A DNA stretch of 64,000 nucleotides, taken from NCBI RefSeq assembly GCF_964355755.1, contig NC_092671.1:2088501-2152500 (forward strand). Direction: 5' to 3'. Below the pieces are notes generated by a model. That model did not search any database. It was not told where the DNA came from and saw only the letters and a program-made list of their open reading frames with translations. The DNA comes from Antedon mediterranea. Taxonomy: Eukaryota > Echinodermata > Crinoidea > Comatulida > Antedonidae. The translations under genes and the position numbers were made by a program. Shown one piece after another: positions 2,584 through 49,700 of the stretch (position 1 is the stretch's first letter; each line of letters starts with the position of its first letter).

Positions 2584-3488
2584 TACCGTATATTTCGGTG
2601 TATAAGTCGCCCTTTTGACACGCAAATTTGACCTCTAAATTAAGGGTGCGTCTTATACACCAAACATAAATGCCTCACTACACAGATTGTACATAGGCCT
2701 ATGCTATCATCACCTCGTTTGCTACTGCTAGGCCTAGCTACAGTAACTAACTAACGTAACGGCAACCTGCTTCTGCCTAGTTTTCAAGGCATTTTAGCAT
2801 GATGTTATACTAAATATGATGAAAAGATTTGTTCATTATGGCACTCCCATAAAATTTCATTTGTAAACGTTTACGTACGATTAGAATAGTATTTATTTAT
2901 ACAGTAGTTATACGCACGATCGCCGTACCCCCAGCGGAGACCTTTCTTGGTGGCCACATGGTGTATTTATAGTTATACGCACGACCGCCGTACCCCTAGC
3001 CTAGCGCAAACCCTTCTTGGCGGCCACATGGTGTACGGTATTCGACTAGTATATTCTCCAGTTGATTATAGCATGGACCTAGCGTATACACTTCTCGGAT
3101 ACATAGATACTAATCGAATACGATTGTCCGTGAAAACGTGCGCCCTCTCGAAATGATCGAGCGAGGCTAGCCCACACACGTACGTGTTACACACACGGTC
3201 ATGCACTCGATGTTGCGGCGAAACTCATGAATAACAAGTTAGAAAGAACTTGTTGAGGCTGGGCGCGGCCGAGCCTAGGTATGAAAAAACCTAAATAAAG
3301 GACGCCGTTGTAGATATAACAAAATATATTATTACAATAATATTGATTACAATTTAAAAAAAACATTCTTTTGATGAAAAATAAGGTGCGTCTTATACAT
3401 CGACGATATAAAAAATACCGATATTTTACTCTCAGTTAGGGGGTGCGTCTTATACACAGGTGCGACTTATACACCGAAATATACGGTA
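2584..3488 (+). mobile_element. TACCG...CGGTA TIR element, copy A
   Basis: The element is bounded by TACCGTATATTTCGGTGTAT and its reverse complement. Each end carries further copies of GTGTATAAGNCGCAC-type motifs. A second copy in opposite orientation lies at 41175-41969. The outer TA could be part of the repeat or a TA target duplication. Inside this copy a segment of about 70 bp (GCACGA.CGCCGTACCCC to GGCCACATGG) is duplicated at about 2911-2965 and 2980-3035. No transposase is visible. Confidence 0.8.
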
Positions 3489-4909
3489 GTTTAATAATAG
3501 TCTCTATTTTGAACAATAGACATGATTGTTAATAGTCACTAGTTGATTTAAATAATTGTGCGACAGTACTTAGCTAATAGTGAGATTGAAAGGTGATGAA
3601 GCTGGTGATGCTAATGAATATTCATTAATAATTAAGTAAACTGCTTTTGGGGAGTGGCTTGTGTAACAAGAAATGCTGACCTTGGGGAAGGCACCCAATA
3701 TTCTAAACTGCCTTAATTTATGATAATTTAAAGTTCAGAAAACAGCTCTTTAAACATAGCATCAAAAAAGTAAATAAATTCAAATAAAAAGAAAATAATT
3801 GAGAGCTAATGCACATGAATGAGTTAATAAACTTAAATAATAAAAATAAAACACAAAATGATTTTGAAATTTAGAAGAAAACATAATTATAGACTGTCTC
3901 TAGGTATAGGACTTTCAACAGTAATCCTATTCATGAATACTTAACCATAATACAACTATTTTATAAGAAAATTGACAATAAATAAAAAAGAAATAGTAAC
4001 TTAGTACTATTAGTAGTGTAGTAAACAAGTTAAAAACAATAAACAAACAAACAAAGTAGTCCTAACTGTAACTTCTCAGGTTTTCAATTATTATTGATAA
4101 TGCCAATTTTTTGCACAGATGTTGAAAGTTAGTTTGTTGTTTAAAGTATCTGTCAATTTGTTATTTCAATAGTGTATGGGATATGAAGCAGAATAATCAT
4201 CATTGTCTATAACTGTCAGTAATTTCAACTGACAGCAAGCAAACTTTCTAACATCAATAATAATATATTATACAGTTGACTAGAATTTAAAAGTGAAAAT
4301 GATGGTTTTATTCACGGTCAATCAAAACGTTAAAAAAACAAACCATGTTTTTTCTCTCTATTAGTATTAATAATCTGTCAATCTACCAAATTGATTGGTA
4401 TGGGACTGGTTTATTGTATAGGTAATCAATTTTGTATCGCATGCACCCATTGAAAGAAAATTTATTTTGGAATTTTTGCATTTGTATTATCATTTTTACC
4501 AACAAAATTGAATGAACAAAAGTACAGTATGCAACAATGAAGTGTATGAGATAAGGTAATTACAATTGTTATGTTACCATGTAAATATAAATGTCTCAGG
4601 GTCACAATGAATAATATGACAAACATAATTACAGATACAGATCAATTTTGTTCTTTGTCTAAATAGTGAAATGTGAATTTGATTGACAAGAAATGTTCTT
4701 TTTTTTTTCATATTTCCTATTTTTCTTCAAGAAATCTAATTAATCTGGTTTTAAAATAGTAAATATGACAAATTAATAACTTTTAATCTGTATAGCATCT
4801 GCTATTAATGTAGTTAATTATAATTATATTTCACACAATGAAATTTATAACATTTTAATTATTTGTCAATGAAAAATAATTATAATTATTTAAAATGTTT
4901 AGTACTCAC
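3489..4909. other. Intronic sequence with no recognised feature
   Basis: This is AT-rich sequence lying in the intron downstream (in the minus-strand sense) of the last visible exon of the Sp-class gene. I looked on the minus strand for zinc-finger linker coding (HTGE-type) and C2H2 patterns and found none. The zinc-finger exons therefore appear to lie left of the window. Confidence 0.5.
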
Positions 4910-6664
4910 CAGCAGCATTTGCTATTTGTCCTGCAGTTGTTGTAGATATTCCTTGTCGGATCTGAGTGGACACCGTTGGTACAGTTAACGTTGGCACGTT
5001 ACTGTAACTCTGCACGGCAACAGTTGGATTGGCAAGACCGATACTCGTACCAGAAACAGCGGCCAGGATGGGCTGGCCCTGAGCATTTGTACCGGATATG
5101 TTCAAGCCTTGGAGTTGAACTTGCTGCAAGTTTAACGTATTCGGTATAGATTTCATAGTTAAGAACGGACTCTGAAGCAACGTTGTACCCTGGGTATTTA
5201 CCGCTTGCGCAATGACCTGTTGCGATTGCGTACTGACTTGCGTCGGAGCTTGCGTTCGAACCGTGATAGCTCCCTGATGAGGTTGTAATATTGTTTGTTG
5301 TGGGTGAATGGAAATAGTCTGCTGGGGTTGAACTGCGACCTGTTGCGGTTGCAGTGTAATGTGTTGCGGCTGTATGACATTAACGATTTGAGCACTCTGG
5401 GATTGCGGTTGCTGAATTGTAAATACTGGACGTTGCTGCTGTTGTTGGAACGCAACAACCTGTTGCAGTTGTTGCTGCAACTGAGTTGCAGGGTCTTGAA
5501 TCTTCGCATCTTGTTGAAATGAAATCGTGCCCTGTTGAGGCTTTATGTTCTGCGTCGTTAAAATATTCTGCGGTTGGGACGTTGTAGAGGTCACATTGTG
5601 AGAACTGACCTGTTTTAAATCAACCGTTGATTGTGTCCTGTCTTGCTTATTAACAGTCTGATCAGCTGACGCAAATGTAGCGTCAGAAATGTCCTGCTGA
5701 AATATCTGTTGGGGTGCAACGATACTGTAAACTTGACCCCCTCCCTGGTCACTGCTAGCAACAGAAACATTTGGGGAGGGTGCAAGTTGTAACGTTAACC
5801 CCTGTGAGTTAAGTGCAGTTAACCGAGGAACTGAAAAGTTTTGGACTAATTGTCCATTTGTTGAAATTATTTGTCCGGTAGGCAAAGCAAAACCTGAAGT
5901 AGCAGCAGAGGAGAGATTTAAATTAGTTTGTGCTGGAGCAGTAGCTCTGAGTATTGCCTGATTTGTACCAGGAATTTGTGTTGCAATTAAACTTCCATCT
6001 GAATCAAGATGTAGCTGAGGAATTATACTGTACTGCAGTAAATTAGTATTGTTCAAAATTTGTGGTTGTAAAATTTGCTGAGAATTGATTCCTGTTGCTA
6101 TCACAGTTTTAACGGGCGAACCGTCCACTATTTGAGCAGTTGTTCCAGTAGGCAACTGTGTCGCGCTCGCAAACCGAACGGGAACGGGCAGTCCAGTTTG
6201 AATGGGTTGAGCAATGGACGCCTGTGGCACAGCGGTAACAATATTTCCTGTTGCTGTTGTTATGAATTCACCAGCCTGATTTTGGCCTAGAATCTTTACA
6301 GTTGTTTGAGGAGCATGAGTTGTTGTTCCCCCTGTCTCCGCAACAGTTCCAATCTTACTACATGTGGCTGCTAACATCGCGAGGGGGGAAGGCTGGATAT
6401 CCTAAAAAACAAGGGGCGGGAACAAAGAAGTGGGTGTGAAAAAGCGGTATACACACAAGGAAGTTTTCATGAACGAAAGACAAACGATATGTACACATTA
6501 AAAATAGGTATAACCTATAAATAATTTTTTTTAATTACCTGTGATGCACTGGAAGGTTGAATATAATCACTCTGTGGTCTAGCAATGGCAACTGTAGCCA
6601 TTTTAGGCCCAATATTCGCATTTGTGATAACAATTTGAGCGTTGGATAGTGATGTTTCCGACAT
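4910..6664 (-). CDS. SP4: Sp1-4-class transcription factor, 5' part (partial at left edge)
   Basis: The protein is a sequence-specific nuclear activator that binds GC boxes through three C-terminal C2H2 fingers in this family. Two coding exons are visible, 6664-6539 and 6401-4910, joined in phase 0; the second donor is G|GTGAGT at 4910. The start chosen is ATG at 6664 (MSETSLSNAQ); an in-frame ATG exists at 6703. Residues 47-60 read SPLAMLAATCSKIG, the Sp box that marks this family, and span the exon junction region. The remaining ~480 residues are Gln/Thr/Ser-rich, with a dense Gln block near residues 325-400, like the glutamine-rich activation domains of Sp1, Sp3 and Sp4. The zinc fingers are not in the window. 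Family assignment is firm; the SP4 label rather than another Sp1-4 paralogue is a guess, since invertebrates often carry one such gene. Confidence 0.88.
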
Positions 6665-8570: not shown

Positions 8571-8773
8571 TAAGATCTGTCAACACTATAAAACTTCATG
8601 TGACAACAAATGTTAGGTGCCCATATATGGACATGATGATGTCATATCGCTACCATATTTAGGTATATCACTACCATATTTAGGTATATCACTACCATAT
8701 TTAGGTATATCACTACCATATTTGGACACATTTTTTTATAAAGTTTGATAGTGTAAAGCTTTAGACAGAGCTT
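8571..8773 (+). mobile_element. CArG-bearing palindromic MITE, copy 1
   Basis: The copy starts with a degenerate CTGTCAACACTATAAAAC end and closes with AAGTTTGATAGTG plus GACAGAGCTT. It contains CCATATATGG and an internal four-fold tandem expansion of a ~21-bp TATCACTACCATATTTAGG unit. It lies about 320 bp downstream of the OLA1 stop codon. Confidence 0.8.
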
Positions 8774-13840: not shown

Positions 13841-14964
13841 CAATTTCGATGACATTTTAAAATATAGAAATACTAAATAGGCATGGAATAAAATTAAGAA
13901 AAAAAAATGTGTTAAAGTTGAGTTGATGCTTACATTTTTATAAAGTTTTAACTTAATTAAGTAGGAAGAATAGTATTTTTTGTGACAGTGTAGCAATGTA
14001 TACAAACAATCAAGATCATTTTATGAAGATTAGCCTTTAGACCAGGCCCGGTGTTACCAGTTGCCTTATTTAGACTAAATATGCAAATATGGTATGGACT
14101 CCACTTGCCATTCAGCTGCTCTCCATCGAGCCAGTTGCCAGCTCCTGTAGTGCGAGTGTGGCTGCAGTTCTCTCTCTACACTACAAACTAGGCTAAAACT
14201 ATTGCCAAGCAAGGCGTTTGACGCGGGTGTAAAACTAAAGAGATATTTATCGTACGAGCTACTTTTTGCCAATCTGGTTTACTGTATTTAATCATTATAA
14301 AATTGTGTATCACATGGTCAAATAATATAAAATACAAATTAAGTACATATAACTAAAAGTATGACTTGTTTCTAGGCCTACCATACTTACTCTATGCACA
14401 ACACCACCGTCCGTATGATGACCGTCGGTGGTGCAATCGTCCACATGGAAAGTTGTCTATGCAGCGCCATCAATGCATTAGATACAATACATTTTCGACG
14501 CATGTTCGACAGGACCAATTTGTTCCACGTTCGACTCCTCTTCTATAGCACCATATATAAATATACAAATTACATAACGTAAAAAAAAAGATTCATAATA
14601 TAATTCAAATAAGTCATTGTTGACTTATAAAGAAAGACAATTTGTTTAATTTTTTATGATTTTTTTTTCCAAACAAAAAAAATGTTTCTTCTTCTAATTC
14701 TAGCTTCGTGATGTTGCAAGCTTGTACAAAAATATTAATATATTGGAAGATAAAAAGTAAGCTAGAATGTTAGTCCAGAATTGTACATCGCCAAATAAAT
14801 AACAATAATAATACAGAAAAACATTTTAACTAGGGGCCTACAGTATTATAATTGTTTTACTGTAGATAGTTCAGAAAACATGAATTGATATTTTAAAATA
14901 AAAAAGTAAAATATTGCTTTTTTTATATTATCGTTCTATGCACACCTGTGAGGCGTTCACACAA
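13841..14964. other. Intergenic, nothing recognised
   Basis: Two short open frames (minus 14272-14075, plus 14366-14548) show no domain. Composition is ordinary AT-rich sequence. No repeat end was recognised before the foldback element. Confidence 0.4.
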
Positions 14965-15924
14965 TAGTAGAGCAGTTAATGACATGAGCTGTGCATTTTA
15001 TTACCAAAGCATGAAACTTGGCACAAAGTTTCTATAATGTATATAGATTCAAAATATCGGGGGGTGCCAAGTGTCCAACGTCCGGTATGGCGGCCATCTT
15101 GATTTCAAAATGGCCACCATAAAAACAAAAAATGTTCATATCTTGGCAACTATACACATTAGAGACTTAATTCTGGTCTCAAATTGTTCACAAACTATAT
15201 ATTTCTATTTGCTCTAATGAAAATTTTCGTCAAAAAATGACCGGAAATGACGTTTCTTTCAGTTTGACCTTTGACCTCGTATTTGTATATCTCTGTAACT
15301 ACTGGTCATTTTCAATCGATTTTGGTGTCATTTTGTTCAGAATAAATACATTTATATTTGTAGTAATGAAACATTTTCACATAAAATGACCGGAAATACA
15401 ATTTATGACCTTTGACATTTAATTATTGATTTTTAATTATGTGAATATACTGTATGTGGTTTTTGGTGGTCTTAAATGCACCTAATTTTGAACTAAACTT
15501 TGACCTGATAGGCGTAATTATATTAAATGATTAATGGACTTAAATTGTATATAGTACATAAAATTGGTAAACATTGTGCTTTTGGTGGTACCATTAGTTC
15601 AATGATGTTGGCACCTTCTGATTCGCTAAAAGTTTTAATAGTTTGACAGAGGAAATAACATACATGTTATGGAATACCGTAAAACCTCGAAAAGGTGATA
15701 GTATGAGCTTCTTTTCGAGATAGACTGTATTTGAATGTCAAATTAATAGTATGATGATCGTGTTTATATCAATATATTATTAATGACCTTACAAAGAACC
15801 CTTTATATTTCAACAATCAAGCCTCAGTTATTCTACAATTTATTGTTTTCCAAGTGGCTGGTAGGCCTATTTTGATTGCATCTTCTTTTTGTAGGCCTAT
15901 GCTTCCTCGGTAATATGGTCCTAC

Positions 15925-17376
15925 CCCTCCTTCTTTGTCTGTAGATGGTCTTATACCCCATTCTTTGTCTGTGGATGGTCTTATACCCCCTTCCTTGTCT
16001 GTGGATAGTCTTATACCCGCTTCTTTGTCTGTGGATGGTCTTATACCCGCTTCTTTGTCTGTGGATGGTCTTATACCCCCTTCTTTGTCTGTGGATGGTC
16101 TTATACCCGCTTCTTTGTCTGTGGATGGTCTTTACACCCCTTTCTTTGTATGTAGATGGTCTTACACCCCTTCTTTGTCTGTGGATGGTCCTACACTCCC
16201 TTCTTTGTCTGTGGATAGTCCTACACCCCCTTCTTTGTCTGTGGATAGTCCTACACCCCCTTCTTTGTCTGTGGATGGTCTTATACCCCCTTCTTTGTCT
16301 GTGGATGGTCTTGAACCCCTTTCTTTGTCTGTGGACGGTCTTATACCCCCTTTTTTGTCTGTTGATGGTATTAAACCCCTTTCTTTGTCTGTTGATGGTA
16401 TTACACCCCTTTCTATGTGTGTGGATGGTTTTACACACCTTCTTTGTCTGTGGATGGTCTTACACCTCCTTCTTTCTCTGTGGATGGTCTTATACCCCCT
16501 TCTTTGTCTGTGGATGGTCTTATACCCCCTTCTTTGTCTGTAGATGGTCTTATAATCCCTTCTTTGTGTGTGGATGGTCTTACACCCCCTTCTTTGTCTG
16601 TGGGTGGTCTTACATCCCCTTCTTTGTCTGTGGATTGTCCGACACCCCCTTCTTTGTCTGTGGATGGTCCTACATCACCTTCTTTGTCTGTGGATGGTCT
16701 TATACCCCTTCTTTGTCTGTAAGTGGTCCTATACCCTTTCTTTGTCAGTGGGTGGTCTTACACCCCCTTCTTTGTCTGTGGACGGTCCTACACCCCCTTC
16801 TTTATCTGTGGACGGTCTTACACCCCTTTCTTTGTCTGTGGACGGTCTTACACCCCTTCTGTGCCTGTGGACGGTCTTATATCCCCTTCCTTGTCTGTTG
16901 ATGGTATTACACCCCTTTCTTTGTCTGTTGATGGTCTTACACCCCTTTTTTGTGTGTGGATGGTCTTACACCCCTTTCTTTGTGTGTGGATGGTCTTACA
17001 CCCCTTCTTTGTCTGTGGATGGTCTTACACCCCCTTCTTTCTCTGTGGATGGCCTTACACCCCTTTCTTTCTCTGTGGATGGCCTTACACCCCTTTCTTT
17101 GTCTGTGGACGGTCCTACACCCCTTTCTTCTTTGTCTGTGGATGGTCTTACACCTCCTTCTTTGTCTGTGGATGGTCCTTACACCCCCTTCTTTGTCTGT
17201 AGATGGCCTTATACCCCTTTCTTTGTCTGTGGATAGTCTTACACCCCCTTCTTTGTCTGTGGATGGTCTTACGCCCTTCTTTGTCTGTGGATAGTCTTAT
17301 ACCCCCTTCTTTGTCTGTGGATGGTCTTATACCCCCTTTTTTGTCTGTGGATGGTCTTACATCCCCTTCTTTGTCT
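15925..17376 (+). repeat. 30-bp minisatellite, about 48 units, inside the foldback element
   Basis: The unit is TTCTTTGTCTGTGGATGGTC plus TTAYACCCCC. Units are mostly 29-31 bp and diverged by substitution and one-base indels. As 30 is divisible by three, long frames stay open on both strands (for example repeating SVDGLIPPSL on plus and TIHRQRRGYK on minus). These frames shift between units and have no gene-like start or domain, so they are repeat artefacts. Confidence 0.95.
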
Positions 17377-17590
17377 GGACCCACTACTTTGATTGATTAA
17401 ATCAGACATTGTTTCTTGTATGATTAGGAGACCAAGACCTTGAAAGTGAAAGTCCACAAGTGGATGCCTAAATAGGTCTTGTACAGAACAGTATATTGTA
17501 GGTCCATGTCACTAATTTGAGAATTACTTGAATAATTATATTGAGATGTCTTTTACGAATTGATTTGGTTCGGATTTTGCTAAAAAACCA

Positions 17591-17935
17591 ATGAGTAGAG
17601 AAAATCGAGGAAAAGGATTCAGATGGTTTACAGCAAAGGCCCATTACCATAAAAATGGAGTACATTTTTTTAGATGCAACGAAAATGAACAAGAATTATC
17701 TGAGTTTCTGACTAATGAAAGTAGGTCTACTGCACAAATGCAGGATAAGTTTGTAGTAAGTACTTTGAAAGACGGTATTCTCTTAACTCATGAAAATGAA
17801 AACTTTCCGAACTTGTCTCATATGCAACATCAAAGAGGCCAACGAAAGAATGCTACTTTACATCAAAAATATTTCCAAATGGCATCTAACAATTCAATTC
17901 AACTTTTATTTCAGACAATTGTCCATATGGTATAA
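17591..17935 (+). pseudogene. Decayed transposon-type reading frame
   Basis: An open frame of 114 codons starts MSRENRGKGFRWFTAK and includes RCNENEQELSEFLTNE and DKFVVSTLKDGILLTHENEN. In the next frame (from about 17829) comes CNIKEANERMLLYIKNISK. After another frame change the first frame resumes with MASNNSIQL. From memory, uncharacterised repeat-borne proteins common in marine invertebrates carry a [FR]-N-ENxxEL-FL segment followed by a C-x-HEEADTR-x-LLH motif and an IRTVDTDVVV strand. The order and spacing here fit that layout with frameshifts. The exact family and its enzymatic role are not known to me. Confidence 0.5.
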
Positions 17936-18672
17936 TACAGTGCAAAAAAAAAAGATGATGGAGAGAGGACCAAAACTTTTATCTAACGATTGACACATCA
18001 CAGTTTAGCAAACAAGTCGGCATAGATGAGCTCAGTGATTGCTGTTTCTCAGTGATCTGTCATACTTTACGCCTATCCTATCACATCAAAAGTCAAAAAT
18101 TCAGAATAATAATTCCTGGTCATTTTTGCAGTGTCAGTTATTTCGTTAAAAAAAATTAGGTGCATTTATACCAATGTAAACCACATACAGTATGTTCACA
18201 TATTATATATGTCAAAGGTTATAAATTGTATTTCCAGTCATTTTATGTGAAAATGTTTCATTACTACAAATATAAATGTCTCTATGCTGAACAAAATGAC
18301 ACCAAAATCGATTGAAAATGATCAGTAGTTACTGAGATATACAGATAAGAGGTCAAAGGTCAAACTAGGAGAAACGTCATTTCCGGTCATTTTTTCACGA
18401 AACTTTTCATTAGAGCAAATAGAAATATGTGGTTTGTGAACAATTTAACACCAGAATCAAGTCTCTACTGTTTATAGTTCCCAAGATATGAACACTTTTT
18501 GTTTTTATGGTGGCCATTTTGAAATCAAGATGGCCGCCATACCGGACGTTGGACACTTGGCACCCCCCGATATTTTTAATCTATATACATCAAAGAAACT
18601 TTGTGGCAAGTTTCATGCTTTGGTAATAAAGTGCACAACTTGGCTATTTTTATGGCACTAACTGCTCTACTA

Positions 18673-19026
18673 CAATGACTGTGCGTTGTAATGCCACTTA
18701 TTTGTTATATTCAATGTAAAAGGCACTAACAGCGTGCCACATAGGTATGACCTTGTGTGTTATGTGACCTTTTGTAAGCCGATGTGAACCGCGAATGTTT
18801 GAATAAAGGAATGGCGACATTGTTAAGTTTTCACTATTTTCAAAATACCCCAATGATGCAAGATGACGAAAAAGTTAAAACAGGTATATAAATGTTGTTT
18901 ACGGTACTATCTTGTATTATTCTAGGTCAAATAAACCTGTAAACGTACACATTTTTAGCGTTACTTGTAGTAGGCTCTAGCCCGTCGTCCGCCGAGAGTG
19001 CAGTTGCCAGCAGCAAGGGTTAGTAT
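18673..19026. other. Spacer between two repeat elements
   Basis: There is no gene or repeat that I can support here. A GTAGGCTCTAGCCCGTCGTC stretch near 18970 is locally GC-richer but has no open frame of note. Confidence 0.4.
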
Positions 19027-19824
19027 GTTATGCGCGATTTGAACGATTTGCGCAATTTTAAATTGCGCAAACAAAATCCTTGCGCAATTTGAATTGAAAC
19101 ATGTGTTTCAAATTGCGCAAGCAACGTATTAAATTGCGCAAGTAATCTGCAAATTGTGCAAGGTTTTTCGACAGATTGTGAAATCATGTACACCCATATT
19201 TTTATAGTAATTTCTAAGAATGATTCAAAAATAAAGATAAATATCGCATTTCCTTATTTTAGTAGTGCAAATATTGTTATAAGTTAGCATATCGTCGAAG
19301 AACCGACGAAGGAAAACGAAGCGGTGGTATTCCACCAGGCGGGCGCGGCGCGGGCGGCCGGCTATACTACTCTAGCCTAGCTAGGGTCTGGACTACTGAT
19401 ACTGACTTAGGTTACATGGCCTAGCTTAAACTAATATTAAAAACTTAAAAAGTGAGTATTAAACATTATCTTCATTGAAATGGTCTTATTTATATAATAA
19501 AATACTAAATTTTAAACTCCTCTGCCTAGGCCTAGCCTAGCCATGTATGGGAAAATTTACAGTTCGTTTTCAAATTGCGCAAAGGTGTCATATTGCGCAA
19601 GAACTATCTTGCGCAATTTACAAATTGTGCAGCGCAATTTAAAATTGCGCAAAGATTTTCTTGCGCAATTTGAAATTGCGCAAGTTGATTGCGCAATTTG
19701 AAATTGCGCAAAAAAATCCTTGCGCAATTTTAAATTGCGCAAGAATTATTTGCGCAATTTCAAATTGCGCAAGGATTTTTTTGCGCAATTTCAAATTGCG
19801 CAAATCGTTCAAATCGCGCATAAC
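19027..19824. mobile_element. TIR element built of TTGCGCAA palindromes
   Basis: The left end GTTATGCGCGATTTGAACGA continues into TTTGCGCAATTTTAAATTGCGCAA. The right end is the reverse complement, giving almost identical arms of about 43 bp. Both sides then carry arrays of TTGCGCAATTT-N-AAATTGCGCAA palindromes: about six on the right (19560-19805) and three or four weaker ones on the left (19045-19165). The middle (19180-19555) is partly GC-rich (GGCGGGCGCGGCGCGGGCGG) and has no gene. No exact target duplication was found. Confidence 0.75.
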
Positions 19825-27213: not shown

Positions 27214-30200
27214 TCATATATCAAACTTGTCTGTACAAATGCTCTGGCCACTTTCTTCATATTCCTTCTTGCTGACACACATCTTGGATGAGAACTCATC
27301 TGACTTACTGATACACTTGCCGCCATGCCATGCGTATTCAACCGGGCTAGAAGAAAAACAGAAACTCTCCTTAATATAAACAATTTACACTGATTACGAA
27401 TACTGGTGTCTTTCCTATGATTGAGATGCCTTGGTCTTATTGGTACAAATTGGTCTTCAATTAGAGGTAATATTTAAGGCTCTGACTACACTATCAAACT
27501 AATTTGACAAAAATAAGTGTGATGTGCCCTATTATAGTGGTGATATGCTCAAATATGGTAGTGATATGACATTATCATGTCCATATATGGGTACATCACA
27601 TTTTTTTGTCACATAAAGTTTGATAGAGACAGAGCTAAAGAGTTTTAATTTTTGGACAGAACTATAATATTCAAACTTGATGTGCAATGTGAAATAAAAC
27701 AAAATGCTATTCAGTGGCAAACAGTACTTTTGACTGGAAAATAATGGAATGTCTTACTTTTTTGGTAGGAATACATTAACATGGTATTCTTGTGGTGCCA
27801 TTGAACGAACGTCACGCTCCACTCGTTCCCTAAATCCTGGAAACAATGTGTTTCCACCGGTCAAGACGATGTTATTGTAGAGGTGAGGATGCATTTCTAA
27901 ATAAATTTAAATCATTACAAATTAAAATCATTGATATATATATCAAAATATATAAACACAACAGGCACATGATTCTCAACCACCCTGAGATATACTGAAA
28001 TCTAATCAATTAATTTGAAACGATTGAAATGAGGAAATCTGTGAGAAGGAGAAAAGTCTCCCCAACCAAAATTCTAACCCGGAACCTTCTACTTGATATG
28101 CAGATGTCCTAACCATTAGACCACTGGGGATTAATATATATATATATATATAATACTGTTTATTGACTTTTTTGGATGCAAGATACACAGAGAACAACAT
28201 AATTAATATGGCTCTCATGTATAGTAATATTATTTTAAGAATATGGAAAATAGTTGGTGAAGTATTACTGTACCTTCAGGTGTGGCTGATATGGAGTCGA
28301 CGATGGCTTCAGACACACCCATCTCACGAATGGCGATGTCAGAAGGGTGGAACAGCACCTCTGGTGTTGTGAATCGCTCATTGTTCATTTTAACAATCTG
28401 GAAAAAATGTTCATATTTTTTAAGATATATTGTCCCCCTGAAAAATTTTTTTTAAAACACTTTGAAGATTTACCTGAAAAAACTGTAATTTAAAGGAAAA
28501 ATGTTTTTTTTTTTTAATTTACCAGTTTTGCTTTTTCATTTTATAAGTAAAGTGAAAACATTATTTTTTCGGTTTTTTTTCTACGGAAGAGATTAACTAC
28601 AAAATAAGTATGATTTTCATGTTAGCCTATTGTATGTCAGTATTTGATGGAAAGGGATGTTGAAAAAGAGTAGCAATAACGGCAGTACATTAAAGTTTAT
28701 TCTTTTAGGCAGTCTCAATGATAATATAATTATCAACATCATTGGTCTTGCCATTAATTGTATTTAAAAAACATCTAGTTAGTCAAACCTCACAGCAGAA
28801 ATAAGCAGAGGGGCCGAGCCGGAAAAGTAAGTAGTGGTTAGTCAAACCTGTTCGTGAGACTTTGTTGATGTAGACGGCTCTTTTACATAACCTCTCTTGA
28901 TTTGTGAGAAATCTGGCAGCACATAATCTCGGATTATTGTATTGTCTGGATATTTTAATCTGAAAAAAGTTCATAAATATTCAATTCAGGGCTAATTATC
29001 TCAAAGCTCTAGCATGGAGTGGAGATATTTAGGATTTTTAGTCAATTCTAATCATAGAACGGATTTGAAAACCCCAACCATCTAATTTCATTCAGGATGG
29101 AAAACTGTATCCAACAACGTACCTGGCAATCTCCATATCTTTATTGAATTGTAACGACACAAACGACACATCCTCTTTCACTTGATTGACCACGTACGTC
29201 TCGTCCATCACATGAAGTTGACGGTATGAAATGATCTCCTTTAGGTGGTTCGTTAATAATTTACCTCCAACATTTATTCTAAACAAAAAAATTAAGATCA
29301 TACTGATATTTATATTTAAAGTGTAAAGATACTGGATTGGATCAAAACAATTAAATCTGGAAGCAACCCTGGACTCATTCGTAAGTGTAAACAGAGTCAA
29401 AGATGATTACATTGGTTGTGGGATAATATTGATATTTGATTTAATAATTTTAATTTCCAAAGAGAATGCACATTTTTGACTCCTACACCAATCTACCTAG
29501 CTGAGTCTCTAGAACATGATTTAGTTTACCATCAATGTCCTACCTTCTAACAGCATGTTTGATCTTCTTTTTGCCATAGTATGGTGCAATATGTGTGAAT
29601 GAGTAGCCACTATCAACAACCAAACAACATTTATCTTCTTTATCATCATGCAGTCTTTTATAAGAACTTAGTGATCCAGCTGACAAAGACAAAATAAAAA
29701 AAATGAAAGAAAAAGAATTAGTTTAACCTCTCTCAACTAAATCAAGTTAAAAAACCCTAAAGCTCTGTCTACACTATCAAACTTTATACGACAAAAAAAT
29801 GTGATGCGCCTATAAACATGATGATGTCATATCACTACCATATTTGGGAATATCACTACCATATTTGTGCACATCACACTTTCTTTATCAAACTAGCCTG
29901 ATAGTGTAGACAGAGTTTTATTTTATTACATTGCCTAATTACCATTTGTTCTGAGAATTGCATCAAACTTGTATTCCTCAAAGAATATTTCATTCATTGC
30001 TTCTTGTATGGACACAAAGTTAAAGTAAGGTTCAGTGATGACTATTGACGTGTCTGAGAAGTCTACGTTCATCACGTCTTTACCAAACACGTAATCCCAC
30101 ACCTGGCGTTGTACATCCCAGTTCACCAAATAGCCCTGAAATATAATATACAATTCCTCAGTTAATGACATGTAATACAATTGGTGCTAATACACTTTTG

Positions 30201-34700: not shown

Positions 34701-37700
34701 TTCATCATCTGAGGTGAGACTTAACTTAAATGCATTTTAAATTGGTGTAAAATTGGATAGCCTATGGTAGGAAAAATATAATATGTTTGCCAATTCTCTG
34801 TATCTAAATTTGTCCAGTATCATTAGCAAATTCCATGATACAGCATCATGTGTGTTGTACATGTAACCAAAACCATCCATGATACAGGCACCACATGGTA
34901 CAGACACAGATGAGGCAGATTTTGCCTAATTCCAGTATTGATTTTTACCATTTTTTCTGGTGTCTGTTTTTTGTAGGATTCAGCTAAGGTGCAAGAAATG
35001 TATGCACAACTTGTTTACAAAGACAAGATGATGATTGATCAAAATAATAAATCACTGGAACTTGAGGCTAAGATAATGGAATTGCAAGAGCATGTAAGAA
35101 ATAAAGATGAAGTTATCCAAAGCAGAGATAAGGTTATCAAGGTAAAATACAAGCAGATACAGTGTTTTTTAGAGATAGAAATATTTAACAAGTTTAGAAC
35201 AGACAGAGGAGACTATCAATAACATCTGCTGAAAAAAAATAATTATATTTTTTGTTTTAGGTCATTAGAGATGAACTAACAACCAAGGAAGAAGTCATCT
35301 CCAATCAGAACTCAATAATGGACAATATGAGGTCAAAGTTTGAAAGTGGGGATGAAAAAATGACATCACTAGTTGATGAGATCAGCGAAAAAGAATCTAA
35401 AATGCGAGAAGAGAAGGAGAAATCAGAAAATGAAAAACAACATCTAGAAGGACGATATAAGCAAAAAATCAGTGAGTTGGAGTCAATGTTAAAATTTCAA
35501 GAGGATAAAATTGGAGCAATAGAACTCGAACATAAAACGCAACTTGAAAATCTTGTGGGAAAATCAGAAAGTGATGCACAAATGGAAATGATTAAATCAA
35601 TAGAACATCGTTTGCAAGAAAAAGAAGAAATACTTTCTGGAAAAATGCAAGTTTTGGAGATGTTGCAGAAGGAAATTACTGAAAAAGATTCAGTAATAGA
35701 AGAAAAAGAATCTTCTTTGAAAAGCATTACTGAAAAACTAGAAGTGATGCATCAGCAATTTCAAGGATTACACGAAGATGCAATGTCAAGGGAAGATAGG
35801 TGGACTCGGGATATGAAAGAATTTGAAGAGAAGTATGAACAAGAAATAAATGAAAAGAACACAGCCATATCAGCATTGCAGACTGCTCTTACTCAGTATG
35901 ATGCAGCTTGTAAACAAGCCAGTACACAGTATACAGCTCTACATCAAACCTATGAAAAGAACCAGTCAGAACTGGATCAAACCAGATCAGATCTGGATCA
36001 ATCTAGAACTGAGTTGGATCAACTCAAGTCAACTCAAGCTGACAACCAGAAAGCAAATAATGAAGAACTGAGTAAGAATGTTGATGAATTACAAGATAGA
36101 ATTTCAAAAATGGAAATTGTTCTTGGTGAAAAAGAAAAGGAGATAGAAGACTACAAGAAGAAAACAGAAATTAAGATGGTCAAAATGAAGGCACAAGCTA
36201 AGGCGAAAATTAAAACCTTAGAGGATGAATTACAAGAGATGAAGAAGGTTAGATTTGATCACAGATTCCATTTCATTCTTCCTGCTGGTAAAGGGTTTCT
36301 TTCCTCAATCACTCATTCTGACATCGTTCCAAACTTTCTGCTTTCAGTTTTTAGCCTTTTCTATGTTCTTATTTACCATTCCAACACGCACAATTGTCTG
36401 GCAGCTGCTTAAAAATAAATTTATATCTCTGTTATATTTTTTGCTTCACAAATTGTCAAGGTATTTTTTTGTTTTCTGTCTGCTTTTTCAAATGATGTTG
36501 TCATTTTGTGATTGTTAAAATCAAAATTTGAAAACTACCCTAATACCAGCTGTGTTTACAATTTGATACTTATGATGAGATTGATTTGACTAACTGACAT
36601 TTAAAAAAGAAATGTTTGTAAACAAACCTACATATTATATGTAACATATTTTGTTTTTAAAATTCCAAGTATTATTAATAGGTATTTTTCAAAGTTATTA
36701 TTTTAGTGATAGTGTATACATCATTAGGATAATATATGTTTTAAACTAACAATCCGTAATAACATAATATTTAATTATAACATTTTTTATACACTATTAA
36801 CTTTTTGCTACTTGTATTTATATTCATGTCATTTGCCTTCTCTTGCTACACCTTTCTGCTTTATAAAACCAAAAAATAGTAATTCTAACATTTTTATATC
36901 CACTGTGTTATACTAATTGCTATTATATGTTAGATATTTTCATTGTAAGGCAAGAATCTACATCATAATTAACTTTTATCACTTGTTGTGCATTTTTAAC
37001 ATCACAACCATGCATAATGAGTAACAGTAATTTTTGTTTACCATATTGAATATTGTATTTAAAAAAAAAACATTAAAACCAATAATATGTAGAGAAATAA
37101 TTATTGTAATAAGGATAATGTTATATATTTTGTTATACTGTAATATTACAGTTAATTTGCAGCATTTTGCAAATAATCACTATTATTGAATATGCATTGA
37201 TTGGTGTGATTTTATAACTGTTTTTTTAAAACTCCAGCTCACACATTTTCTACTTATAATTTTATACACATTTACCATAATAATCCTTCAAAATAATGTC
37301 TTTTTGTAAACAGACTGCATCTTCTGTTGATGATGTGGAGGAATTGAAAATGCAGATCACAGAGCTGGAAGATGAGAAAGGAAACTTACAACTTAAGTTG
37401 GTTGACTTTGAAGAGGTCAAGATTCAATTAGGTAAGTGAGGTCAAAGTTCAATTAGGTAGGTGTGGTCTAAAATTTATTTTACTGGCAATGCGAGTGATA
37501 TTAAATTCTAGAAACTATAGTATAGAGAAAGTAAACAGATTAGACTAAAATAAACAAATCATTTTTACATAATTTTAAATTCAGTAAAAAACATTTTAAC
37601 CTGGAGCTGCGTGTGGTCAAATGAGGTTTTTAAAACCGTATTTGTTATTTTTATTTGGACCTGTTTCTAATAGCAAAAAAATACTGTTCTTTCAAAATAC

Positions 37701-40700: not shown

Positions 40701-43700
40701 ACTTTAAAGTGTACCTTACCTACATTTACATTAGTTTACATTGTCAGAACAAAAAATGTTTTTAGTCAATACTTCAAAATATTACTTGAAATCTGTTTCA
40801 ATCTTTTAAATCTAGATTTAAATTCTGCTAAAACAAAACTAGAAGAGGAGGTTGTCAGACTAAATAATGAGAATAAAGAACAACACAGCCAACATGAAGA
40901 AGAAATCAACACACTCAAGAAGGACATGGAGAGCGAACATATGCCTATCGTGGTCATAGAGGATGAGTGCAAGTTACTACAACAGAAAATAAATGAATTG
41001 GAAGAAATAAAAAGAGGTTTGAGTTCAAAGGTTACTGACCTAGAGGAAGGAAAATCGATCCTAGAGACAAAGATTTATGAACTTCAAGTTACTCAAAAGG
41101 TATAGTCAATTTTACATGTTCATGCCAGTGCTCTCTGTTAGTCTGTCATCGTTTAATATTAGTGTGAAGATTCATACCGTATATTTCGGTGTATAAGTCG
41201 CACCTGTGTATAAGACGCACCCCCTCACTGAGAGTAAAATATCGCTATTTTTTATATCGTTGATGTATAAGACGCACCTTATATTTCATAAAAACAATTT
41301 TTTTTAAAATTGTAATCAATATTATTGTAATAATAATTTTGTTATATCTACAACGGCGTCTTTTATTTAGGTTTTTCTTACCTAGGCTCGGCCGCGCCCA
41401 GCCTCAACAAGTTCTTTCTAACTTGTTATTCATGAGTTTCGCACCTGCAACATCGAGTGCATGACCGTGTGTGTAACACGTACGTACGTGTGTGTGGGCT
41501 AGCCTCGATCGATCATTTCGAAAGGGCGCACGTTTTCACGGACAATCGTATTCGATTAGTATCTATGTATCCGAGAAGTGTGTACGCTAGGTCCATGCTA
41601 TAATCACCTGGAGAATATACTTGTCGAATACCGTACACCATGTGGCCGCCCAAGAAGGGCTTGCAATCGTAAACGTTTAAAAATGAAGTTTTATTGGAGC
41701 GCGTAAAACAGCAGCTCCATAATGAACAAATCTTTTCATCATATTTAGTATAACATCATGCTAAAATGCCTTGAAAACTAGGCAGAAGCAGGTTGCCGTT
41801 ACGTTAGTATAATGTAGCTAGGCCTAGCTTACTCAGGCCTAGCAAATGAGGTGACGATATGTACAATCTGTGTGGTGAGGCATTTATGTTTGGTGTATAA
41901 GATGCACCCTTAATTTAGAGGTCAAATTTGCGTGTCAAAAGTGCGACTTATACACCGAAATATACGGTATGTGTTGGTGTATATAAAATTAGGAGTTAAA
42001 CTCTTAATAAAAGAAGAAAATGTTTTGTCTAACAGCTGTAGACATCATCGTTAATTCATTCCTTTAGCATTGTGCTTTTTATGTAACTTCTTATTTACCT
42101 CCGCCAAGGAGGTTTGTGTAATCGGTAGCGTGTGTTTGTTTGTTTGTTAACAAGATTACTCAAAAAGTAATTACAAGATCTTTACCAAAATGTGGTCAAG
42201 GACCATTCCATTAAATTGGGACCATGGTCCCAATTCTGGACCACTTTTTTGTATACTTTTCAGACCTGCTAGTGTTAAAAGATAGGACAGAATTTTTCAA
42301 AAGCTGGCAGGCAGTCTTAAAGTAACAAGTAAACTGAAATTGCATTTTCTCGAGAAATACTTGTCCAAAAAACTTCATTTTTGTACAAGAGGCAAGAGTT
42401 ATAATTTGTGATTTGTAATTTTGAAACATAATTTGATTTTATTTGCACGTTTTTAGAGGTTGATGATAGTTTAAAAAACCTATTTCTTTTCAAATTTACT
42501 TGTTTGATTTTCGCGTTGCTGTTCTATTGTTAGTCAACTGAAGCTATTGTTAATTGAAAGGCTTGTTACATAAACATTACACCAAACTCGCATACACATG
42601 CTTGTAGTGAAATTAGCCTAAATCACAAACAGCATTAAGACACACACAAATATATATATTTTTTTTACTGGGGAAATCTTATGTAGGAGAATTTTACAAT
42701 AGGTGGAGGTATGCACTCTCGGAGTGGCTTTCTAGTTCTAATATGTAAACTGATTTTATCCTATAGGAAGTGAGCAAAGGTCACTTACAATTGTCTGTAA
42801 GTAACATGGAAGAAATAACCAGACTAAATAAATCCAATGCACAGTTACAATCTCAACTTGAAAGTTTGACAGTGTCCAAAGAAAGTCTAAATAAAGAACT
42901 TCAAAATCAGGTATATTTTTCATATAAATTCAATACATTGATTTAATTTAAGATTAATTTAATTTAAGATTGTACTAATACCTAAAGAAGAGTTTTTATT
43001 GATGTTGACTTAGGCTCTGTCCACACTATCAAACTGACAAAAAATGTGATGTGCTCATGTACAGTATGACATCATATTACTACCTTATTTGCGAACATTA
43101 CCATTTTTTGTCAAACTAGTTTGAAAGTGTAGACAGAGCTTTAGTTAAGTTAATAATAATAATGTGTTCATCAGTTTGTTATAAGTCTTTTCAATACATG
43201 AAAACATGAATATATATACGCTACATTTTATATTCTATAGTGTTTTTAATTAAAATCTTTAATTCAATTTTTGCATGCAGGTAGTTCAACTTCAAGCAGA
43301 GATTGACTCAACTAATACACAGTTAAAGCACACAGTTGATAAACTTGACAAAGCGGTTGAAGACTATGAAAACAAAGTGTCAACTATGACTAGAAAGGTG
43401 GAAGCTAGTAATCATGAAATTGAACTTTTAAATGACAAAGTGAAACAAACTGTGGAGAACTTAGAAGAAGTTACGGAAAGATTGAACTTAAAAGAAGAAG
43501 AATTAGTAGATACTGTATCCAAGTTGCACATGAAGGAGACTGAACTTGCAGAAAGCCAGGCAAAGCTGATCGATTTGACTGATAAACTTAATCAGGTTAC
43601 AATAGAATCACAAAGAAATGAAACAAATTTAGAGTTACTTCAAATGGATATTGAACAAGCAAATTCTCAAGTTGAAAATCAGAAGTCTATATTTCTTTTA

Positions 43701-46700
43701 GAGAAACAAGAACTTAAAGGAATCCAGAACAACTTAGAAAAGGATATACGTGAACTTAAACAAGATTGCGTAGAAAAAGATGACTTGATTTCAACACTGT
43801 CAAGTAATGTGACTGAACATTTACAAGAATTAAACAAAATGAAAGATCTACTTAATGAGAGAAATCATTCAATAACATCTCTGGAAAACGCAGTCAGCAA
43901 AGCTGAACGAGAACTGGAAGTTATAAAAGATGGTCAAAGTTCAGAAGGAAGAAGAACAGAATCCAAAGTAACATCACTTTTGGAGCAAATTTCTGACCTT
44001 GAAACTGAAATCGCAAGTAACCAAAAGACGATATCAGATTTTCAAAATCAACTTGATAGTTTAAATTTGCAATTGGAACAAACAAAATCTGAACTTGATC
44101 TTAAAAGCAATGAGATGGAAAACACAGTGATAAAATTTACCAAACAACTTGAGGAAAAAGATCAACAGAACTCATCTCTGCAAGAACAATTGATAACAAC
44201 ATTAAAACAGGTACAAGAAAATGAAAGTTCTTATCAAGAACAACGTAAATTAGACAAAGACAATTTTAATGAAGTTCAAGCTACGTTGAACACTAAACTT
44301 GCAGATTTAGAAGAAGCACAGCAGAAAAAGATTGCTGAATTTAAAAATGAACTAAAGGAAAAATCATCTGCAATTGATGCTGCTAGTAAACAACTACAAA
44401 AAATGAAAGAAAATGTTAAACAGAAGCTAAAATCTACAAAGAAAGAGTTGAATGAGGTAAAAGCTGAATTGAAACAAGAAAGAGAAACTATGAGCCAAAA
44501 GGAACAGGAGAACACGGAGGAAAAAGAAAGACTGTCCAAGACACTTGAGAACTTAGAAACTGAATTAAAAACTAAAGAAGATCGATTAGTAAAACAAGAA
44601 CAAGAAATTCAAGGCCAGGAAGCTTCAGCATGTGATATAACAAACAAACATCAGTTGGCAATTGAAGAAGAAAGAAAACAACTTAAAATGTTACAAATGG
44701 AAAAGGAACAAGTGGAGAAAAATCTACAAGATCAGATCAGAAGATTAGATGAATTAGAAAATCAGAATCAATCGTTATCTCAAGAACTTACTAATGCACA
44801 AGAACAATTGAAAATAGTACAAGCTAATGCTGATGAACTATTGCAAAAAGTTGACAAATTACAGGTTGAAAAGGAGCATTGTGATAGCAATGCTAGGACC
44901 GAGAAAGAAAGACATGAAGAATCTATGCAGGAAGAATCGGCCAAATTTAATCAATTACAAGAGCAGTATAACAGTTTAACTCAAATTGAAAAAGAAAGAG
45001 AACAGTCTATTGGTTCAACAGTCCAAGAAAATCAATCTTTAAAGTCATCATTAGTGAAACTAGAAAACAATTGTTCTGAAATTACAGAAAGGTTTAAAGA
45101 ATTACAAGAAAAACATCACAATATGATGTTGGGTGATGATGAAAGAAGCAATTCATTACAGTCAGCCAATCAGGAAATAAGTTCTCTTACAGAATCACTT
45201 AACATTACTGAAGAATCTCACAAAGAAAATGTTGATGCACTTAATAAACAGATTCAAAAGTTTGAAGAAGAGACCGCAAACTTACAAGATGCGCTGAAGC
45301 AAAAAACAGAATCATTCAATGTACTAAATGAAGAGTATTCCAAATTAATGAGTATAACCTCAAATGAAAAAGAGGAACTGCAAGAAAGAAACAACATTGC
45401 TGAAGAGAAATTAAAACATCTTGAAGACAGTCTAACTGAAAAAACAGACATGCTCCACCAGGTTACGCAGAAGATTGTAGACAATGAAAAAGCTTACCAC
45501 GAGGAACTCAATCAGTTACAAAGACAAATAGATCTGGTCTCAACAGAGAAGGACAAAGTATCATCAGAAATTGTTGAGTATGAAGCACAAATTAAAGAAT
45601 ACAAATCACAACTCGCTGTAAGTGCAGACAACTTTAGCGCTGAAATATCATCTTTGAAGGAAAGTATAGAGATGTATAAAGAAGAGATTCAGAGGATTCA
45701 GGAAGAATTCAATAAAAAGGAAGCTGAAGTAAAAGAATTAAATGAAACTTATAATTCTGAAAGCCAACAATTACAAATGAAGCTGCGTCATCTTGAAGAA
45801 GAGCACCAACGTGAAACATCCAAAATAGAGACTCTTGAAAAACAGACAAGTAGTCAAGAATCAGAGATTGCTAGTCAACTCTCAGCCCTTAATGAAGCAT
45901 TTGAGAGATCAATGGAAAAAGTGCAGGATCTGGAAAGTCAGCTGAGAAGTAAAGAAAATGATATAACAAAACTAGATCTTGTTTTGAAGGAACAAAGAAG
46001 CAGTTATGAAGACCAGTGTAGTAAATTACAAGAAAATATTTCTAAGATCAGTGCAGAATTAATTGAGAAAAGTGAAAAGTCTAGACATGAGAAGGAAGAA
46101 ATTGAAAGTAAATTAAATTTGCATATTCAAGAGTTAACTGAAAAACTTGAAAATAGTGAAGAATCAATTCAGAAATTAGAATCAGAATTACAAAATACAA
46201 CTTCCAAAATGTCTTCCATGAACAGTAGTTTAGTAGCTTATTCTGAACGAATTCCCGAGTTAGAAAATGAATTACAAAATAGATCTTTGCAATTAGAAGA
46301 TCTTGAAGCTAAACTTACTGGACAAAATGTTCAATTTGATGAGTTAAATCAAAGTGTTTCTGAAAAAGACGTCTTGATCTCCACTTTAGAAAAAAAATTA
46401 GACGAAATTCAAACAGAGACAGATGGCTCAAAGCTAGAGAAGGACGATGAACTTGAAAAAACACAAGAGCAATTTAAGAAAGAGAAAACAAAATTACAAG
46501 AAGAATTACAAGGACTAAAAATTAAGTATGGTAAACTTTTAACAAAAGCAAAGGATGTTAAATCACAACTGGAAGGAGGTAAACAAGATATTAGTTCTTT
46601 AACCATAGAAAAAGAAAACCTGCAGAAATCATTAGGAGAAAAACAGGAGATATTGGAGAACCAAGCAACTATGTTGGATAGCCTGAACTCTAGACTTTCT

Positions 46701-49700
46701 GAGGTACTACAGCAAAAAGAAGAGCGAGAATCCACAGTTAATGAACACGCCAAAAAGCTGCACGAATTGGAGAATCAGCTTGAAGGCATGAATTCCAAAC
46801 TGGAAGAAGAAATAAATAAAAATGAAGAACTTAATTTACAATTAGTTTCCCTTAGAAAACGAGCTGAAGATTTGCAATATGTTGAAGAGGAGTTTAATTC
46901 TCTGAAGTCCAGCACACGGACCATTGTTGCTGAAAAGGAGAAAGATATTGCACAGTTAGAGCAGGTTAGAGATTCACTTAAGCAAACTGAAGACCGCTGT
47001 GCCAATCTGGAAAAGGAGAACCAAAGTCTGTGTGACCAGTTAGAAGAACTGAAAGTAAATTTAGAAAAACTTAAAGAAACTAATATTGATGATGGAAATA
47101 ATATAAGATTACTTACAAAACAACAAGAAAATATGACAGAGGAGTTAAATGAAGAAAGAAATGCTAGAGATGTTATTCAAAAGCAGAATGAAAAGCTGAA
47201 AGCCCGGTTGATGAAAACGGACGAAACCTACAAGGCAGTAACAAAACAGTTAGAAGATTTGAAAAAGAAGAAGGAAGAGTTAAGTGAGACTGTTATACGT
47301 AAGCATGAAGATGTTTTTGAACAAAAAATTGGGAATATGAAGATTGAATTCGAAAGTCTTAGACAATCACATGACCAAAGTTTTGAAGAAAAAAACTCTC
47401 TTACAAAAGATCTCCAGAATGAAAGAGCAAAATATGATGCATTAAATACTGAACTGACTGAGTTACAAGACAATTACAAACAAGCACTTTCTACTGTTGA
47501 TGAAAATGAAAAAGATATTTCTATGCTGAAAAAACATCTAAAAACCGCTAAAGAAAAGATAATGCAACTAAAAAATGAAAAATCTGCAGATAGTGATGCT
47601 GCAGCTGCTGTAGAGGTCCAGAATAAAGAGCTGCAAAGTACAATAGAAGCTGCAACTAAGAAAGCTAAAGAGCTACAACTGATGAACCAGCAAATCTCAA
47701 AAGATTTAACAACTGTTAGAGATGAGAATGCTCAGGTACAAGAAGAAGTTGGCAATCTTAAAGTCAAGTTAGACAAAATGAGAATCTTAAAAGAAGAAGA
47801 AATTACCCAACTGCAAGAAGAATTGGATGAAACACAAAATGATTGGCAAGCAAAATATAATGAAGATATAAAGAAATCGAAAGATGAATGTGAAACAATG
47901 AAGACTGAATGTAGCAATGTGTTGGAGGAAAATTCTAAGTTGATGTCTGAAAATGATAAAATGAAATGGGACCACGATGAAACACAAGCTGAATTTGAAC
48001 TTTTGCAGGAAGATCATAATAAATCATTGTTAGAAATTGAAAGCTTGACAACACAACAATCAGAGCTTAAAGATGATAGTTCCATCCTCCGACAAGAAAA
48101 AGACAAGCTAATAGAAGAATTAGAAAAATGCAAACATGAACTTGGGAATGTTTCAACTCTGTTAGATGATGTGAACGCTCAAAAACATACTATTGACACA
48201 GAAAATGCAAATCTTGTTCTTGAAGTTGAAAAGCTTAGAGAAATAGCAAAACATGAAGAAGAACTTAGAGAAGAGGTTGATACATTAAAATCAGGATTAA
48301 AGTCAACGAAAGAAAAACTTGATATAAGCTTTGATAATAATCAGAAATTGACTTTAAACCAAAGTGGCATTGACTTGGAACGTTCTAAAGCTAAAGCAAC
48401 AGAAAAAGAAATTTTAGAAGAAATGCGAATGATCTCCACCGAGAAACAGCAGTTGAAATCAAGTGTTGAAACCCAGAACACTCAACTTGCTCAGTTGGCA
48501 GAACAGTTAAAACAAGTTCAGTTAACTGCTGATTATTATCAAGCAAGAAATGAGGAACTGACTGATGAAGTGGAAGAAATGAAAGAGACAATGCAAGAAA
48601 TGACAAATGAAAAGACAAAGAAAATGAGCTCTCCAGTAGCCATCATCCCAGAGATGCCACCAAGTTCGGACGTTGAAAGAGAAAAACTTCAAGGGTCTTA
48701 TGATGAAAGTCGTCAACAGCTTCAAAGTGTATTAGAAGAACGTGACCTGTTGACACGCAGTCTTCATTTACGTGAGCAAAGGTCAGTTAGTAACATTTTG
48801 TTTCATAGATGGCAATTTATATTCACTCTAGAATCTGTATTTTCTATAAAAAAAAAACAATGAAAGCCTATTTGATAACTGCAAGAAAATCAGAAAGAGT
48901 AGTACTGGAAAGTCAACACATGACACAAAGGAATCTTAAATAACTGACACATTTTTTTTTATAGGAACCAGGAGTTAACTGCTCAAATCGGGTCTGTGGT
49001 AGAAGAACGCAATAATCTTTCAGTACAACTGCACAATATTCATCGGACATTACGGGACACTGATAATCGATACAAGGAATTAGCTTACAGACATAATGCC
49101 TTAGAACAAAAGTTTGCTAGCGGCCAGGTCTCTCAACCAAAGGTATTTTTTTATAATATTAATTTGTCTTATGTTTCTTTGTTCTATTCTAATCCATTTA
49201 GGCTTTGTATGGCTACTAAGCCTAAGTCTACTAAGAACAGAGCGCCTAACAATATTAAAACTATTTTATAAAAATAAAAGTCTTAAGATTATGTTTAATC
49301 TAATTCGAAAACATTTTCATATGCAGTTTAATATATTCAGTTGTTTGTCACGAACATTATTATGTTGCATATTTTTATTTTATAGATTGTTGAAGAACCA
49401 ATAGTAGTTCCACATACAGCAGAAGTTCAATGGTCAGCCCCTCCTACAAAACAAGAGGACCAATCACATGACTTGTTACAGACTGACTTAATTAATCTCA
49501 CTAAAAGGTACAGTATTGTGTTGAATGTGCTACATAATGTAGAAGTATATGCACATTGTTGAACATTGCATAGTTATTTTTTTTTTTACATCATAGACTA
49601 AAAGAAAAAATTATATGATACACCTTAAAATTAATATATGAACATTAATGTGTTATTTTAAACATTTACATGTAAAGTTTGTGTTAAGTTATTTGTTTAT

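Follow-up and report, generated by a model that had tools for sequence, protein, structure and literature searches.

A recently mobile, minisatellite-bearing non-autonomous transposon family in Antedon mediterranea and its probable AcademX-like ancestry

Introduction

Foldback elements in the strict sense, i.e. those of the Drosophila FB, Galileo and Tetris type, have modular arms that consist of tandem repeats; the target duplication is ~9 bp long for FB and 7 bp long for Galileo. Academ elements carry a DDE transposase domain of the Academ type and a Cys8 zinc finger. The duplications that flank AcademX elements are of 3-4 bp and those that flank AcademH elements are of 9-10 bp, which has been tied to the encoded nuclease and helicase (PMC10045372); the mean size of Academ elements in bivalves is 5,565 bp (PMC10294476). 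Tetris, from Drosophila virilis, is non-autonomous, with long inverted arms and internal tandem repeats that are carried along with the element; its 220-bp repeats are located in the arms and have seeded satellites (PMC4079207). Transposon segments are known to turn into satellites and minisatellites, and satellites that derive from coding regions have been described for ORF2 of LINE-1 and of CR1 (PMC6947457, PMC9659126); slippage or unequal exchange is the usual route of tandem-repeat expansion (PMC6947457).

Here, we have analysed an element that is located in a 64,000-nt stretch of the genome of the crinoid Antedon mediterranea (NC_092671.1, positions 2,088,501 to 2,152,500), which we refer to as the window and to which all plain coordinates refer. 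The element is a real, well-bounded, recently mobile non-autonomous DNA transposon, and it has very probably arisen by internal deletion from a cut-and-paste transposon of an AcademX-like kind and would be mobilised in trans. Its family has the 3-bp duplication of AcademX, and a gene-bearing partner in the same genome, at 6.9 kb near the Academ size range, encodes a putative XPG/FEN1-like nuclease domain; unlike AcademX, the window element is 3.7 kb long, has no working gene and carries a minisatellite that has grown out of transposase codons. The family resembles Tetris in being non-autonomous and in carrying tandem repeats between long inverted arms, but its 30-bp repeat is central and derives from coding sequence. 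The passage from transposon segment to tandem array is shared with the satellites of transposon origin, from which this family differs in that the source is a cut-and-paste transposase gene, in that the array has remained part of a mobile element and in that a relative with a single unit persists in the genome.

Results

Structure and boundaries of the element

The element is complete and its limits are exact, with CAA located directly outside both ends (Table 1). A sequence-only reading of the locus had described arms of more than 500 bp that pair across 3.7 kb, a minisatellite of ~1.45 kb with 48 units and a frameshifted reading frame, and measurement bears out each of these. The inverted arms, of ~520 bp each, terminate in a 14-bp mirror pair (TAGTAGAGCAGTTA...TAACTGCTCTACTA); positions 14987-15421 pair with positions 18206-18640 at 93% (435 nt, ungapped), the outermost 21 nt pair at 90%, and the gapped alignment covers 503 nt at 90%. 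The minisatellite has a period of 30, with 87% matches and 48.9 copies (about 49 units). The frame at 17591-17935 runs for 114 codons without a stop; a different frame holds the CNIKEANERMLLYIKNISK stretch. No match to the spacer at 15690-15914 was found in the alignment with the 6.9-kb partner.

Table 1. Coordinates of the element, its parts and its target-site duplication in the window.
Feature	Position	Strand	Basis or remark
Target-site duplication, left copy, 3 bp (CAA)	14962..14964	.	Sequence; rule as in 16/16 other distinct copies and the 6.9-kb partner
Left terminus TAGTAGAGCAGTTA	14965..14978	+	Copy set; sharp boundary backed by paralogous empty sites
Left terminal inverted arm	14965..15489	+	~80-bp subrepeat twice: 15170-15248, 15318-15397
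Internal spacer	15690..15914	+	Alignment to the 6.9-kb partner ends at ~15680
30-bp minisatellite, 48.9 units, unit ATGGTCTTACACCCCCTTCTTTGTCTGTGG	15915..17377	+	Unit equals codons TPPSLSVDGL; source: transposase codons TPPSLSEDGR
Decayed piece of the last large exon of the partner	17398..18033	+	Collinear with L061:4717-5262 and L061:5291-5335
Residual open frame, 114 aa	17591..17935	+	Departs from the ancestral frame just before CNIKEAN
Right terminal inverted arm	18152..18672	-	Arm pairing
Right terminus TAACTGCTCTACTA	18659..18672	-	Copy set
Target-site duplication, right copy, 3 bp (CAA)	18673..18675	.	Sequence

Copies, target-site duplication and empty sites

The search of the 354-Mb genome with one arm, as the sequence-only reading had suggested, has returned at least 40 copies of the left arm that are 98-100% identical and spread over the chromosomes (best 40 of 1,953 candidates), so that the feature is neither a product of chance nor a local duplication, which that reading had considered in case no other copies existed. 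With a 24-nt pattern taken from the left end and a tolerance of two mismatches, 116 left termini are found genome-wide, versus 0 for the reversed control pattern. There are at least about a hundred copies of this non-coding transposon family in the genome, a number with which a local duplication is ruled out.

The comparison of the flanks, also suggested by that reading, has fixed the target duplication at 3 bp. The flanks diverge exactly outside TAGTAGAGCAGTTA, and the left end is preceded by the same 3 bp that follow the right end in 16/16 distinct copies in which both ends were read, against 20/240 for mismatched left-right pairs; when the window copy (CAA on both sides) and the 6.9-kb partner (TAA) are added, the rule holds in 18/18 copies checked. 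The window copy would by itself suggest a duplication of 5 bp (ACAAT) or of 2 bp (TA), both of which are ruled out by the copy set, in which the duplicated 3 bp lie outside TAGTAG.

The copy at C7:13612175 is inserted in another repeat, and other copies of that repeat are uninterrupted across the joined site; two such empty sites, read directly, show GCAATA|AG with one ATA, whereas the occupied site has two. For the window copy itself no empty site was found; its flanks are single-copy in the genome.

Outside the array, ten full copies, one of which is that of the window, share 97-100% identity, in many cases more than 99.5%, and all contain an array of 38-59 units; the element has therefore moved recently as a single block. 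The left and the right arm of one copy differ by ~7%, whereas left arms compared across the best-scoring copies differ by 0-2%, which indicates that the arms have been inherited from a master element and not homogenised in each copy. The low divergence between copies also suggests that the age of the family is small.

A gene-bearing relative with the same ends

The reading frame had been proposed as a lead to the mobilising enzyme, and the remnant does belong to the gene of a partner element, to which it has led. A protein search with the remnant has recovered the same broken fragment many times over and, at C1:25513358, a single long open frame, which comprises 816 aa, so the frame is not without a homologue; the 816-aa frame resides in a 6,924-bp element with a multi-exon gene (C1:25508126-25515049, L061/L075). 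The 14-bp ends of this partner are identical to those of the window element and its arms are ~89% identical to the window's, its own two arms being 93% alike; the ends and the duplication of the window element are thus common to a larger, gene-bearing element, as befits a non-autonomous derivative.

Relative to the partner, the window element retains the two arms and, at 82-90% DNA identity, a piece of the 816-aa frame; the initial exons and the final part of the gene are missing. Within the fragment, the domain is truncated, the conserved EEAD has become KEAN and a frameshift lies just before the motif; given the KEAN residues and the frameshift, no enzyme can be made from it. The 6.9-kb copy has an apparent in-frame stop at the end of a 520-aa frame (three-frame translation), at which a relative (L062) reads through. 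Because of this apparent stop and the ~11% divergence of the arms, the 6.9-kb element, although the nearest one that bears a gene, probably does not supply the transposase today; no close partner that is fully intact was found in the assembly.

The enzyme family

Related, collinear frames of 1,064, 1,547 and 1,555 aa occur in the same genome. The HEEADTR-type motif that the sequence-only reading linked to repeat-borne proteins of invertebrates is real, being present in relatives with long open frames as HEEADTR, NHEEADTK and CNIEEADER. The central region of the relatives gives DUF6589 matches in a consistent register, all below the Pfam cut-off (best E 0.00043). The C-terminal part contains, in order, the motifs D, VFD, (H)EEAD, DxD and GCD, with the positions of D, EEAD and DxD being invariant or nearly so; D, VFD, EEAD, DxD, GCD is the acidic-motif order of XPG/FEN1 nucleases. 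When a profile of 10 relatives is compared with all PDB sequences, human EXO1 ranks at the top (E 0.0046; next unrelated match 0.22), in an alignment of remote similarity that meets the relatives at the VFD and GCD motifs. The C-terminal domain is likely to be a nuclease domain of the XPG/FEN1/EXO1 type.

EXO1 is reached by the family profile only: when the window fragment or single proteins served as queries, neither Pfam nor PDB gave anything useful, NCBIfam gave no match, and Pfam, NCBIfam and PDB together offered no better assignment for the enzyme family. A scan of IMG/VR found no relatives. Most of the related proteins terminate in a cysteine-rich, CXC-like stretch; L061, L077 and L078 have it, together with a sub-threshold TCR match, whereas the frame of L079 lacks it.

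Origin of the minisatellite

In the 6.9-kb partner, the 30-bp unit has one match (L061:4670-4697), in the codons TPPSLSEDGR, and the consensus unit of the array reads TPPSLSVDGL; the sequence 3' of the array resumes collinear with the partner at L061:4717, and the motif PPSLs..G.LR is kept in other relatives. This single, collinear unit and the resumption of its flank show that the array has arisen by expansion of transposase codons at their original position, while the remaining gene was being lost or afterwards. Among the matches listed from a genome search with the array (of 331), the array lies, as judged by eye, where the arm or gene-remnant searches also match.

Open frames cross the array (window 15914-16543, +) in several copies and reach up to 440 codons in L065; they are long because the unit is of 30 bp, and automatic gene calls can be expected to include them as an artefact.

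Other features of the window

Several further repeats are located in the window. A segment of ~0.9 kb occurs twice, at 2584-3488 and 41175-41969, in opposite orientation and 38 kb apart, with pieces that are 93-100% alike, and is probably another interspersed repeat; a 59-bp tandem array (1993-2560) adjoins its first copy, and a compact inverted repeat (1333-1964) has arms of 202 nt that are 94% complementary and 228 nt apart. The 21-bp unit catatcactaccatatttggg forms short arrays in both orientations at 8644-8723, 27511-27568, 29831-29877 and 62433-62494. Two clusters of the palindrome-like motif TTGCGCAATTTnAAATTGCGCAA (19030-19140 and 19570-19820) are situated around a G+C-rich, promoter-like stretch. 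As for coding sequence, a 1,866-codon frame for a long coiled-coil protein (43263-48863, +), with a strong A-over-T and G-over-C strand bias, is probably joined with 35261-36412 as exons of one golgin/giantin-type host gene, and a 500-codon, glutamine- and threonine-rich frame (4899-6401, -) resembles Sp-type transcription factors in their activation region.

Discussion

We consider it very probable, as stated above, that the window element descends by internal deletion from an AcademX-like transposon. As the comparison with the 6.9-kb relative shows, an ancestral gene-bearing element of ~7 kb has lost most of its gene, so that the arms and a portion of the last exon remain; the 30-bp stretch of transposase codons has expanded into the minisatellite, presumably by slippage or unequal exchange; the derivative, array included, has then spread to about a hundred sites, and the array has later gained or lost whole units between near-identical copies. 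The mobilising enzyme, judging by the relatives in the same genome, would consist of a central DUF6589-like region (a weak match), a C-terminal XPG/FEN1-like nuclease and a terminal cysteine-rich, CXC-like motif; such a transposase would recognise the long inverted arms and the terminal TAGTAGAGCAGTTA, cut the target with a 3-bp stagger and act in trans on the element of the window.

The sequence-only reading had regarded the locus as a possible decayed autonomous transposon, and it was right that the element is mobile; what is found is an internally deleted, non-autonomous family that has been amplified recently. A gene remnant with a frameshift is indeed present, as would be the case if a full gene had once been located here and had degenerated on its own after insertion, but copies on other chromosomes have the same deletions, the same array and the same truncated frame, with up to 99.9% identity outside the array. 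Since this deletion structure is common to the copies, the deletions have preceded the spread, and an independent decay at this site is extremely improbable. The label of a foldback element, given by the same reading, suits the locus descriptively, with its long arms that pair over several kb, its internal tandem array and the 80-bp subrepeat that each arm contains twice. That it is a strict foldback element is nevertheless very unlikely, because the array is central and not in the arms, the duplication is of 3 bp, and the arms are mostly unique sequence, i.e. ordinary long terminal inverted repeats that also delimit an element of another kind, which bears a gene and has the same ends.

Duplications of 3 bp also occur in PIF/Harbinger, Zator and EnSpm/CACTA, and the window element could have been a non-autonomous member of one of these superfamilies; we find this very unlikely, as the gene between the same ends has no Pfam match to their transposase domains and its nuclease-like domain fits the nuclease reported for AcademX. 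The derivation from an AcademX-like element is accordingly preferred over these superfamilies, with AcademX as the likely name of the superfamily, judging by how long the duplication is, by the domains present and by the features described for Academ elements.

The family is new as far as could be checked, and the kind of element is already known and ordinary. It is conceivable, if very unlikely, that the minisatellite is more than a passenger, and that an array grown in place, with exactly 10 codons per unit, has been of use to the derivative, for instance through chromatin, pairing or the spacing of the arms. If so, the tandem expansion of transposase codons would be a recurring path from gene-bearing transposons to successful parasites of their own enzyme.

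The proteins with the HEEADTR motif, which are poorly annotated in invertebrates, are linked by this analysis to transposons with 3-bp duplications and a likely XPG-like nuclease domain. The descent of the repeat from transposase codons is unusually clear: one genome holds a gene-bearing relative with a single 30-bp motif, a derivative with 38-59 units and ~100 near-identical insertions with clean ends. With this full genealogy legible within one genome, empty sites for one copy included, the birth of a minisatellite inside a transposon can be read directly.
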